34,438 nucleotides of DNA from a bacterium (lineage in GTDB: Bacteria; Patescibacteriota; Minisyncoccia; Moranbacterales; UBA2206): NCBI GenBank assembly GCA_029567195.1, contig JAKQLJ010000027.1, positions 1 to 34,438 of the forward strand. The letters run 5' to 3'. A program made the position numbers and the translations under genes. Positions 240 to 6,578 of the stretch are shown piece by piece. Position 1 is the first letter of the stretch, and each line of letters starts with the position of its first letter. The notes below the pieces were generated by a model. It did no database searches and was not told where the DNA came from. It saw only the letters and a program-made list of their open reading frames with translations.

Positions 240-2204
240 TTATTCTTTTTTATCTTCCCCATCCTTCGCTTCCCCTTCGGATTGGCTGGCGTCTTTCGTC
301 TCGGCGTCCTTCACGCTATCTTCCGGCTTATCGGAAGATTGCGTGTCCGCCGAAGAGGCGGATTGCTGACCTTGCGCTTCCTGAGCAGCCTTGTAAAGTT
401 TCTCGCCTATTTTTTGCGCAGCTTGGGACATTTCTTCAGTGGCTTTCTTGATCGCTTCGATATCATCGCCGTCTTTCACTTTTTTGAGCGCTTCGATCTT
501 TTCTTCGACTGGTTTCTTTTCATCAGCTGTGATTTTGTCTCCGGCATCGCGCAGCGCTTTTTCAGTGGTATACACAAGCGTGTCCGCCATATTCTTAGCT
601 TCGATAAGTTCCTTTTTCTTCTTGTCTTCTTCCGCGTGCACTTCAGCGTCTTTTCTCATCTTTTCAATTTCTTCTTTGGAAAGTCCAGTGGAAGCTTCAA
701 TGCGGATAGATTGTTCTTTGCCAGTCGCTTTGTCTTTGGCTTTCACGCTGAGAATTCCGTTGGCATCGATGTCAAAAGAAACTTCGATCTGCGGAATGCC
801 ACGGGGAGCCGGTGGAATGCCGTCAAGAATAAATCTTCCCAGAGTCTTGTTGTCTCCGGCCATTTGCCGGTCGCCCTGAAGCACATGGATTTCCACTGAT
901 GGCTGGCTGTCAGCCGCTGTGGAAAATACTTGCGATTTGGAAGTCGGCACTGTCGTGTTTCTTTCAATAAGCGGTGTCATAATTCCGCCCATCGTTTCAA
1001 TTCCAAGAGTGAGCGGCGTCACATCAAGAAGGAGAACATCTTTTACATCCCCTTGCAAAACTCCGCCCTGGATAGCCGCGCCCAGCGCCACCACTTCATC
1101 CGGATTGACAGTGAGATTTACTTTTTTTCCAAAATAATCTTCCACTGTTTTCACAACTAGCGGCATCCTGGTCATTCCTCCGACCATAATTATTTCATTG
1201 ATATCTTTGGCTTCCAGTTTAGCGTCATAAAGCGCTTTTTTCACCGGCTCCAGCGTTCTTTTGACAAGATCGCCGACCAGTTCTTCCAGTTTTGCGCGCG
1301 TCAGTTTCATCACCAAGTGTTTCGGACCATTGGCGTCAGTCGTAATGAAAGGCTGATTGACTTCCGTTTCCATGGCTGTCGAGAGTTCGATCTTCGCTTT
1401 TTCCGCCGCTTCCTTGATTCTCTGCAAAGCGAGTGGATCTTTTCCAAGATCAATCCCTTCCTGTTTTTTGAATTCATCGATTATCCATTGGATGATGATC
1501 TGGTCGAAATCGTCTCCGCCAAGATGGGTGTCGCCGTTGGTTGATTTCACTTCCACGGTGTCATCGCCTACTTCCAAGATGGAAATATCAAAAGTTCCGC
1601 CGCCCAAATCATAGACTGCGATTTTTTCATCTTTTTTCTTATTAAATCCATAGGCGAGAGCTGCCGCTGTCGGTTCATTGATGATTCTTCTCACCTTGAG
1701 GCCGGCAATTTCTCCTGCTTCCTTGGTCGCTTTTCTTTGCGAGTCGTCGAAATAGGCGGGAACAGTGATGACCGCTTCTTCGATCTTTTCGCCCAGCTTT
1801 TCTTCCGCGTCCGCTTTCAGTTTCGAAAGAATCATGGCGGAAATTTCCTGCGGAGAATATTCCTTGCCGCTCATCTCTACTTTTACGCCACCACCTGCCT
1901 GTTCGGTAGACAGGTTCGCTTTCACAATTTTGTACGGCATAAGCTTCAGATCTCTTTGCACTTCAACGTCCCCAAAAGCGCGTCCGATAAGGCGTTTGAT
2001 GGAATAAAGAGTGTTACCCGGATTGGTTACCGCCTGGCGTTTGGCCAGAAGTCCAACCAATCTTTCTCCTGATTTGGAAATGGCTACCATAGAAGGAGTG
2101 GTTCTCGCGCCTTCTTTGTTTTCGATGATCGTTGGGGAGCCGCCTTCCACGACTGCCATCGCCGAGTTAGTGGTCCCGAGATCGATACCTAATATTTTTG
2201 GCAT
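240..2204 (-). CDS. dnaK: Molecular chaperone DnaK (Hsp70); start trimmed to [16 protein letters not shown]
   Basis: [46 protein letters not shown] and VGGMTRMP motifs. The 20 N-terminal residues of the listed ORF are encoded by the palindromic leader. Confidence 0.97.
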
Positions 2205-3096: not shown

Positions 3097-3966
3097 CTAC
3101 TTCACCGTCACTTTTGCCGGCCGGATTAATCGGCCATTTATTTCATATCCTTTCTGGATAATCTTTTCAATCTTCCCGCCTCCTACTTTATCGCCTGTCA
3201 CTTTCTGTATCGCCTCATGAATAGACGGGTTAAAATCATCTCCTATTTTTGTTTCTATTTCTTCCACGCCGTTATCGGCCAAAACCTGACTGAGCTGCCT
3301 TTGAATATGCATTATTCCCGTGACCCAGGCATTGTTTTTTTGATCTTCCGGAATATGCCCGGTCGAAGCGTAAAAATTGTCCAGCACTGGCAAAATTTCC
3401 CGAATTAAATTCATATTGGCAAAATAAACTATCTCTTTTTGATTGTCATTTTGCCTTTTTTTATAATTTTCAAAATCAGCTTGGCAGCGCTTCCAGCTTT
3501 CGAGATATTTGCCTTCATCAATGCGCTCTTTGGCTTTTTTTATAATCCTCTTGACCCAATCATGATAATCATTATTTTTTTCTATCTCTTCTAATGTTTC
3601 CCACCGAAACTCTTCGTGCTCGTCGCTCAATTCTATTTCTCCACCTTTATACATAATGAGATAATCAATCATGATAATGTTTCCCACGTCGAGAGAAACT
3701 TTCTTTACACTGACCGGACCAATCATTTCAAAATCCACATCACCTATTTCTTCCCGGATCTCTCTTTCAAGTCCCGCTTCCAGAGTTTCATTGTCCTCCA
3801 ACCTTCCTCCAGCAAATTCCCATCGGCCAAAATGCTTCAGGAAATATTCCTGTGGATTTTTCGCTTTTAGCAAAAGGAATTTTTTCGTATTGTCGTCATA
3901 GATCAGCGCCTTTTGGGCTATAGGGACATGATATCTTTTTTGCTCATTTTTGTTTTCTTTATCCAT
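3097..3966 (-). CDS. Nudix hydrolase domain fused to a GrpE-like nucleotide exchange factor
   Basis: N-terminal Nudix box GRLEDNETLEAGLEREIREEIGD (GX5EX7REUXEEXGU); C-terminal GrpE signature ADFENYKKRQ...LPVLDNF...VLADNGVEEIETKIGDDFNPSIHEAIQKV...ILQKGYEINGRLIRPAKVTV-like end. Confidence 0.9.
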   Translation of the reverse strand: MDKENKNEQKRYHVPIAQKALIYDDNTKKFLLLKAKNPQEYFLKHFGRWEFAGGRLEDNETLEAGLEREIREEIGDVDFEMIGPVSVKKVSLDVGNIIMIDYLIMYKGGEIELSDEHEEFRWETLEEIEKNNDYHDWVKRIIKKAKERIDEGKYLESWKRCQADFENYKKRQNDNQKEIVYFANMNLIREILPVLDNFYASTGHIPEDQKNNAWVTGIMHIQRQLSQVLADNGVEEIETKIGDDFNPSIHEAIQKVTGDKVGGGKIEKIIQKGYEINGRLIRPAKVTVK

Positions 3967-5202: not shown

Positions 5203-5328
5203 AGCTCTCTCCTTTTTTTCCTTGATTTTTTTACTAAAATCAACGGTAAAGCTGGAGCTAATTTATCAGAATTATCCCCTATTGTCAAAAAGGTTTTGAA
5301 AATATAAACAAAATATTTTATGAATTTG

Positions 5329-5399
5329 TTCCGAGACTAGGACTCGAACCTAGATTAGCAGAGCCAGAATCTGCTGTCCTACCATTAGACGATCTCGGA
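5329..5399 (-). tRNA. tRNA-Gln (anticodon CTG)
   Basis: TCCGAGA acceptor / TCTCGGA; anticodon arm GCAGA-TTCTGGC-TCTGC; T arm CTAGG-TTCGAGT-CCTAG. Confidence 0.93.
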
Positions 5400-5469: not shown

Positions 5470-5500
5470 AACCCGATGAAAAAAGCCACATTGTGGCTTT
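5470..5500 (-). terminator. Rho-independent terminator downstream of the tRNA-like RNA
   Basis: Minus strand AAAGCCACAATGTGGCTTTTTTC. Confidence 0.7.
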
Positions 5501-5510
5501 GATTTTGTTT

Positions 5511-5640
5511 TGGAGCGGGCTAGGGATTCGAACCCTCACTTGGGGTGGAACCGGATAATTTCCCGAAAGAAGGGAGGAGGAGAAAAGAAAAAACCAGAAA
5601 ATTATCCCGGCTCCCCAAGCTGTCACCAAGACGCGCCCGC
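5511..5640 (-). ncRNA. tRNA-like noncoding RNA: acceptor, T arm and encoded CCA, with a ~20-bp hairpin in place of the anticodon arm
   Basis: 5' GCGGGC pairs with 3' GCCCGC followed by TCCA; T loop GGTTCGAATCC; internal helix CTTGGGG..AGCC.GGATAATTT / AAATTATCCGGTT..CCCCAAG; own terminator; no conventional anticodon arm fits well. Confidence 0.65.
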
Positions 5641-5669
5641 AAATATATAAAGAAAAAAGAACAACTATA

Positions 5670-6578
5670 TTATATCTTAAGATACCGCCTTATGGCAATC
5701 ATCGAGCTGACAACGCCCAAAAATGCTCCCACTATAAGTTGAATGCCCAAAAGATACAGGATGTTTCCGGTAAAAGCGGTAGAGATAATTTCCTTGGGAA
5801 TGACGGATGAAATTTGCGGAACGATAAAATTAAGGGTGATAAAAACAAAAAGAGTAGAAAGAATAAGGGCGATAACCGCATAGATAATTCCTTCAAAAAT
5901 AAACGGCAACCTGATAAACATATTGGAAGCTCCCACCAGCCGCATCACTTCAATTTCGCTTTTGTGGGTATAGATGGTAATCCTGATGGTATTAAAAGTA
6001 ATGAGAATGGAAATGACAGCGAAGAGGATGGCCAAACTCAAACCGATTCTTTTTGTCTCCCCGATCAGCCGATTAAGTTTTTCGATTATTTCCTTGTTCT
6101 TTCCGTAATTTACCCGACTGACGTCATCCTTAAAGGAAGCTTCTTTCACATAATTGGCAATAGCTTCATATTTTGCCGGATCATTTGCTTTTATAACAAG
6201 CGATGCCAGAAGCGGATTGTCTCCCAATTCTTCCAAAGATTTTATGATTACCGGCTCATCGGCATTGTTGCGCTTAAAATTTTCCAACGCTTGGCTTCTG
6301 GTAACATACTCCACTGATTTTACTTCCGAATAACCAGCCAAATCGCTTTTGGCTTTCAAGATGGCTTCTTCTTGAACATCAGTCTTGAAATATACGCTGA
6401 CATTGGCCTTTTCCTGAACATTTTTTAAAATCCCATCGGCTGTCTTGGTTACTACGAACAGAAGACTGACCACAAAAAGAGAAAGAAAAAGCACGGTCAC
6501 GGCGGCCACGCTCAACCAGCCGTTTCGAACAAAGTTTTTTAAACTCTCGCTAAATGTTCTGCCAATAACTAAAAGCAT
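5670..6578 (-). CDS. ftsX: Cell division protein FtsX
   Basis: FtsX-like permease topology; VSVYFKTDVQEEAI..., EIEVMRLVGASNMFIRLPFIFEG; adjacent to ftsE. Confidence 0.93.
   Translation of the reverse strand: MLLVIGRTFSESLKNFVRNGWLSVAAVTVLFLSLFVVSLLFVVTKTADGILKNVQEKANVSVYFKTDVQEEAILKAKSDLAGYSEVKSVEYVTRSQALENFKRNNADEPVIIKSLEELGDNPLLASLVIKANDPAKYEAIANYVKEASFKDDVSRVNYGKNKEIIEKLNRLIGETKRIGLSLAILFAVISILITFNTIRITIYTHKSEIEVMRLVGASNMFIRLPFIFEGIIYAVIALILSTLFVFITLNFIVPQISSVIPKEIISTAFTGNILYLLGIQLIVGAFLGVVSSMIAIRRYLKI

Follow-up and report, generated by a model that had tools for sequence, protein, structure and literature searches.

A tRNA-like RNA element with a long hairpin in place of the anticodon arm, encoded between ftsX and tRNA-Gln in a Moranbacterales genome

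Between the ftsX stop (5670) and the tRNA-Gln(CUG) gene, the minus strand of the window (the whole stretch of 34,438 nucleotides analysed here) carries a tRNA-like RNA element of 130 nt, at 5640-5511, which is real and unusual. It possesses the acceptor stem, the canonical T loop, the D-loop GG and the CCA of a tRNA, and lacks the 7-nt anticodon loop, the UCC being part paired and part in a bulge. Of the two leading explanations, a tRNA-mimic RNA gene specific to the lineage has a slight edge over a tRNA copy that was remodelled and survives as a relic. As judged from the sequence and its predicted fold, there is a little less than an even chance that the element is a lineage-specific small RNA gene with a non-decoding tRNA-mimic product, convergent in layout with mascRNA and menRNA from human transcripts.

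The gene reading is supported by the significance of the fold and by the rarity of its structural descriptor; a promoter-like site and terminator, intact and mismatch-free helices and the layout matching mascRNA and menRNA support it as well. Against a function stand the lack of any homologue in the searched genomes, viruses, phages and plasmids, the palindrome-bearing tRNA debris that this genome makes, a pyrimidine loop without excess pairing to gene starts, and promoter hexamers that lie within coding sequence. Since neither conservation nor covariation was found and the same genome holds tRNA copies broken by palindromes, a new RNA class is not established.

Position, parts and fold of the element

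The features of the locus are as follows.

5670..6578, minus strand: ftsX, upstream neighbour of the element (Pfam FtsX_ECD/FtsX)
5669..5698, minus strand: predicted sigma70-like promoter TTGCCA-18-TATAAT, 11/12, within the last ftsX codons
5641..5662, minus strand: predicted U-rich leader of about 22 nt with a putative transcription start, left unpaired when the predicted transcript is folded and probably removed by RNase P
5635..5640, minus strand: acceptor stem 5' strand GCGGGC (sequence and fold)
5622..5632, minus strand: D-like hairpin GUC-UUGGU-GAC, 3 bp and a 5-nt loop with GG (fold; elbow contacts putative)
5594..5620, minus strand: long helix 5' strand, in place of the anticodon arm (fold)
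5565..5593, minus strand: pure pyrimidine tract UUUUUUCUUUUCUCCUCCUCCCUUCUUUC, 29 nt, mostly the terminal loop of the long arm (run scan and fold)
5538..5566, minus strand: long helix 3' strand, with a 3-nt bulge CCA at 5548-5546 (sequence and fold)
5522..5536, minus strand: T arm AGGG-UUCGAAU-CCCU, 4 bp, canonical T loop (sequence and fold)
5511..5520, minus strand: acceptor 3' strand GCCCGC (5520-5515), discriminator U and encoded CCA (5514-5511) (sequence)
5477..5500, minus strand: intrinsic terminator AAAGCCAC-AAT-GTGGCTTT and U tract, stem 5500-5482 (sequence and fold)
5328..5399, minus strand: tRNA-Gln(CUG), downstream neighbour of the element (ARAGORN)

Read along the minus strand, the element runs GCGGGC GC GUC-UUGGU-GAC A (long helix) G AGGG-UUCGAAU-CCCU A GCCCGC U CCA. 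An earlier sequence-only reading of this DNA had described the GCGGGC/GCCCGC acceptor, the U, the encoded CCA, the T loop and the GTC-TTGGT-GAC hairpin, all of which were found where it had placed them on this strand, and had put the element 29 nt after ftsX, which agrees with the 29 nt between the ftsX stop and the first acceptor base. The same reading had a helix of about 20 bp replacing the anticodon arm; the replacement was confirmed, and the length comes to about 26 bp, in a bulged helix (5620-5594/5566-5538) closed by a pyrimidine loop of 27-29 nt. The 29-nt tract of this arm, within which CUCCUCCUCCC is contained, is the sole pyrimidine run of at least 20 nt detected by a run scan of the window. 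The 3' strand of the long helix includes, at 5550-5546, a UUCCA resembling U33-UCC-A37.

Linkers between the helices are almost missing (2, 1, 1 and 1 nt), and a single nucleotide separates the long helix from the T arm, giving a variable loop of about 1 nt against the 4-5 nt or more of a tRNA. The T stem has 4 bp plus one possible G.A and the acceptor has 6 bp, so that the stack of acceptor and T stem comes to 10-11 bp and not 12. The helices are free of mismatches, and the deficits relative to a tRNA are confined to the D loop, the variable loop and the T/acceptor junction.

The minimum free energy fold of the element is a closed, tRNA-like multiloop of four helices, as the sequence-only reading described it, with an energy of -52.1 kcal/mol where shuffled sequences average -40.1 (z -3.41; 1 of 200 shuffles does equally well). 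The interior helix alone gave a z of -3.8, with 1 of 1000 shuffles equally good, and 68 of 5000 shuffles closed into a multiloop of three or more branches. In the predicted transcript, 5662-5476, the leader stays unpaired and is followed by the tRNA-like body and the hairpin of the terminator, with pair probabilities of 0.99-1.0 for the acceptor, 0.96 for the D hairpin and 0.92-0.98 for the T arm; nearly all pairs of the long helix reach at least 0.84, a few at bulges having 0.5-0.75. A descriptor consisting of the T-loop, a 4-bp T-stem, a 6-bp acceptor and CC matched 0.075 times per shuffled window, and in 432 kb of loci the element is its only match that is not an ARAGORN tRNA.

That the metagenome-assembled genome joined a tRNA fragment to unrelated sequence is extremely improbable. 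Such an artefact would fit a fragmented assembly (54 contigs, 87% complete) and the occurrence of the element in one genome only, but helices pair perfectly across the junctions, and relatives share the synteny of the flanks.

Comparison with known RNA classes

The element had been claimed as an unclassified RNA, and the annotation programs gave no reason to classify it. ARAGORN left it uncalled in the default and intron modes (the calls at one very relaxed intron setting were judged nonsense), and Rfam at gathering thresholds, applied to the whole window, returned two ordinary tRNAs only, leaving the element unmatched by RF00005 and RF00023 among the rest. Weak matches to Phe_leader and STnc430 under permissive thresholds (E about 0.5-2), which the terminator drives, were judged chance. 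An ordinary or class II tRNA was rejected on the ARAGORN and Rfam results. An intron-containing tRNA was rejected as well, given that 907 excision constructs yielded 4 default ARAGORN calls (Ser, Ser, Stop and Glu), none of them Gly. An archaeal-type intron was rejected too, an archaeal-type tRNA splicing endonuclease not being found in this 87%-complete genome.

The likeness of the acceptor and discriminator U to those of tRNA-Gly, pointed out from the sequence alone, is real, and the UUCCA (U33-UCC-A37 of tRNA-Gly) adds to it. The element shares with tRNA-Gly(UCC) the GCGGGC acceptor, U73, the T arm and the UUCCA and CCAAG segment, but its anticodon is buried in the long helix, its D arm is short and its variable loop has about 1 nt. 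A functional tRNA-Gly(UCC) precursor, its anticodon loop interrupted on the 5' side by an intron that is spliced out before use, would account for the Gly-type acceptor, for U73 and for the 43-nt alignment of U33-UCC-A37 and the following CCCAAG with phage tRNA-Gly(UCC). We consider it very unlikely, as ARAGORN called no intron tRNA at default thresholds, the constructs and the endonuclease search came out as given above, the D arm is short, the variable loop is nearly missing and the T/acceptor junction is one base short. The insert is also much too small for a group I intron, and tRNA-Gly(UCC) has an ordinary gene of its own in the genome (G000:C31:1-59, truncated by the contig end).

The layout had likewise been compared with that of tmRNA, with the caveat that the element leaves no space for a tag ORF or pseudoknots. 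Like the tRNA-like domain and P2 of tmRNA, it bears a tRNA-like end on a long helix with the T arm adjoining, but it has no tag ORF, no pseudoknots and no RF00023 or ARAGORN match, and its acceptor is Gly-like with U73. A tmRNA or tmRNA fragment was rejected, in keeping with the caveat, and an ordinary tmRNA with the tag ANFITKAKTAIAQAFAPSFAPALA sits elsewhere in the genome (G000:C1:25896-26291).

The bacterial Y RNA YrlA, of 90-150 nt, resembles the element in carrying a tRNA-like domain on a long helix (PMC8394870), but it forms its long stem from its own two ends and binds Rsr, whereas the ends of the element form the acceptor. YrlA/Ro RNA was rejected; no Ro/TROVE protein was found in this 87%-complete genome and no Rfam match was obtained. 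In the Bacillus cereus group, tRNA-Other, a pseudo-tRNA inside a regulatory RNA, is like the element lineage-restricted, tRNA-like and probably outside translation (PMC3399842); it differs in having a Trp anticodon and a far larger transcript, whereas the element has no anticodon loop and appears as a short unit of its own.

Conservation, tRNA ancestry and palindrome-broken tRNA copies

The order ftsX-tRNA-Gln is common in genomes of the family and was seen in some genomes of the order, and the element is missing from this interval in relatives. A single-sequence covariance model of the element (R1) found just the element when run on genomes of the family (34), the order (131) and the phylum (380), among which its own genus has no second genome; the weaker matches in the family were ordinary tRNAs. 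A trimmed, insert-tolerant model (R2), run on the family genomes only, recovered the element at 73-89 bits and besides it tRNAs alone. A D-loop/T-loop pattern gave four matches in GTDB contigs, none judged a relative, and no match in viral contigs. Phages and plasmids yielded tRNA-Gly 3' halves and short matches only, and blastn for relatives returned only short matches, to tRNA T arms or pyrimidine tracts. With no homologue in the searched genomes there is no covariation; a lack of conservation and covariation among relatives, which the sequence-only reading had named as refuting its claim, is thus the outcome that the covariance-model searches gave. No relative carries the element, which leaves two readings: a young gene for a tRNA-mimic RNA, or what remains of a tRNA gene after remodelling.

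Its sequence makes derivation from a tRNA likely. From the anticodon on, phage tRNA-Gly(UCC) genes can be aligned to the final 43 nt (TTCCA-CCCAAG...AGGGTTCGAATCCCT-AGCCCGC-CCA), in a comparison with two genes selected by the very search that found the alignment, and the differences lie mostly at the variable loop and the T/acceptor junction. The D region is like that of tRNA-Gln with a shortened loop (CGTCT-TGGT-GACAGC), and the best non-self matches of R2 are tRNA-Gln genes, two of them the syntenic genes beside ftsX (in G010 and G004). Compared with the tRNAs of relatives, the element fits Gly(UCC) and Gln best and about equally well, and its arms fit no single tRNA of its own genome end to end. 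The parent may have been of either type, the sequence favouring neither Gly(UCC) nor Gln.

The strongest counter-evidence to a functional reading is the set of palindrome-bearing tRNA copies. In the same genome, a tRNA-Arg(TCT) copy (L063 1470-1555; G000:C4, about 3744-3829) has its D loop split by a 23-nt palindrome, CCTGCCTGCCGGTTTAAGGCAGG; the copy is 100% identical to the tRNA in both of its pieces, the acceptor 3' side is lost and the intact gene lies just downstream. A 5' copy of tRNA-Arg(GCG) (L034 about 520-600, minus strand; G000:C16) is split at the same place in its D loop by a longer palindrome, of about 40 nt, belonging to the CCTGCCTGCCGGTTTAAGGCAGG family, and the intact tRNA-Arg(GCG) follows. 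The 5' piece of a tRNA-Gln(TTG) (L044 1172-1193; G000:C33) stops in the D loop and has hairpins after it, and two Lys pieces, one with a palindrome of the CCTGCCTGCCGGTTTAAGGCAGG family in the T arm, flank the intact tRNA-Lys (L063 1698-1719 and 1894-1938; G000:C4). In the relative G039 (L093), a tRNA-Gln copy directly after ftsX, at the syntenic locus, is split by a GC-rich palindrome of about 60 nt. Within this genome the palindromic repeats appear to have a preference for tRNA copies, and the broken copies here and in G039 mark palindromes in tRNA copies as a habit of the lineage.

These copies give substance to the view that the element is a remodelled relic, in which a duplicated tRNA copy (Gly-UCC- or Gln-type) beside tRNA-Gln received a palindromic insertion in its anticodon loop and became functionless, perhaps still being transcribed. 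We regard this as a serious possibility, short of probable but nearly equal in likelihood to the gene reading. It is consistent with the broken or truncated Arg(TCT), Arg(GCG), Lys and Gln(TTG) copies, each near an intact gene, with the split tRNA-Gln copy of G039 at the locus of the element, with the R2 matches to tRNA-Gln genes, two of which lie in the ftsX neighbourhood, and with the absence of the element from every relative searched. However, in the examined copies the acceptor no longer pairs or the 3' part is gone, whereas the element keeps all helices perfect; its hairpin lies outside the repeated palindrome family, no second copy of it being found in the genome; its arms match no one tRNA of the genome; and a predicted promoter-like site and terminator frame it. 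The sequence-only reading had itself offered a decayed tRNA with an inserted palindrome as the alternative: such copies do exist in the genome, but with every helix of the element intact, simple decay is hard to reconcile with it. Were the element a relic, it would illustrate how a palindrome inserted into a tRNA copy may pass for a new class of RNA when sequences are scanned.

Three further irregular tRNA loci were observed. In relatives (L115 1110-1433, L127, L132 and L133), tRNA-Phe(GAA) is split at about position 33/34 by about 230-250 nt, the anticodon loop probably holding a group I intron. A tRNA of the genome under study (L059 from 1501; G000:C28:4443-4516) has an apparent 6-nt anticodon loop, CTCAAA, for which ARAGORN reports the 2-base anticodon 'ca'; the cause may be a deletion or a misassembly, or the tRNA itself may be unusual. 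A tRNA-like sequence with a shortened D region (L065 1501-1575, minus strand; G000:C32:3912-3986) scores 16.8 bits against RF00005 and has no ARAGORN call.

Transcription signals and possible role

A promoter-like site of the kind predicted in the last ftsX codons occurs at 1 of 30 ftsX 3' ends compared, namely the end bearing the element. The minus strand of the window holds six sites of equal quality, five besides this one, so that its presence at the element by chance is possible. The terminator attributed to the element is present; it starts about 10 nt past the CCA, and the same palindrome is also reported on the plus strand. Because the -35/-10-like stretch ahead of tRNA-Gln comes after this terminator, the element looks like a unit of its own, and the promoter-like site and terminator together predict a stand-alone transcription unit.

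The position of the element 29 nt past the ftsX stop and ahead of a terminator would also suit a 3'-UTR element of the ftsEX mRNA, with the tRNA-like fold serving as an RNase P cut site or stability cap and the released RNA as a by-product. The ftsX start region moreover tops the 32 gene starts of the window in pairing with the pyrimidine loop (-13.7 kcal/mol), but such a duplex energy does not stand out: -12 is reached by 12.5% of the coding stretches used as controls. Since ftsX of relatives lacks the element, and the predicted promoter-like site past most of ftsX suggests separate transcription, we hold the 3'-UTR reading to be unlikely. Taken together, the 32 gene starts showed no excess pairing with the pyrimidine loop over coding controls and, if anything, paired worse, which leaves an anti-Shine-Dalgarno regulator acting on gene starts unsupported.

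Released by RNase P from longer transcripts, human MALAT1 and MEN-beta, mascRNA and menRNA are like the element in having a tRNA acceptor and T arm, a CCA end, a small D arm with two guanines in its loop, a longer stem that takes the place of the anticodon arm and adjoins the T arm, and missing linkers (PMC11693755). They differ in being human, in receiving CCA post-transcriptionally and in their compact loop, whereas the loop of the element is pyrimidine-rich and its CCA is encoded; the likeness is one of layout and not homology, and processing of the element is predicted.

In the predicted fold, the acceptor, the T arm, the GG-bearing mini D arm and the encoded CCA make up an intact tRNA-like end. 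If the element is a tRNA-mimic RNA gene, then by analogy with mascRNA and menRNA RNase P would cut at G5640 (U at -1) and the 3' end would be trimmed to CCA, the tRNA-like end protecting and maturing an RNA of about 130 nt. The working part may be the long arm with its C/U-rich loop, which could bind a protein or pair with purine-rich RNA. The gene would probably have arisen from a duplicated tRNA gene with a tRNA-Gly(UCC)-like 3' half and a tRNA-Gln-like D arm. More doubtful is the full analogy, by which the element would be a bacterial counterpart of mascRNA: a dedicated, RNase P-matured tRNA-mimic gene of recent tRNA-duplicate origin, with the tRNA end as a module for maturation and stability and what was once the anticodon arm as a regulatory hairpin with a C/U-rich loop. 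Provided that it is transcribed and processed, the element would be a case of a bacterial tRNA gene that became one for a small RNA by keeping only the part read by the tRNA-processing machinery, the same solution as in the human MALAT1 tail, and as the genome holds plausible intermediates in its palindrome-broken tRNA copies, the origin of such RNAs could be traced.

Elsewhere in the window, at 3097-3966, one ORF encodes an N-terminal NUDIX domain ahead of GrpE, an unusual fusion.
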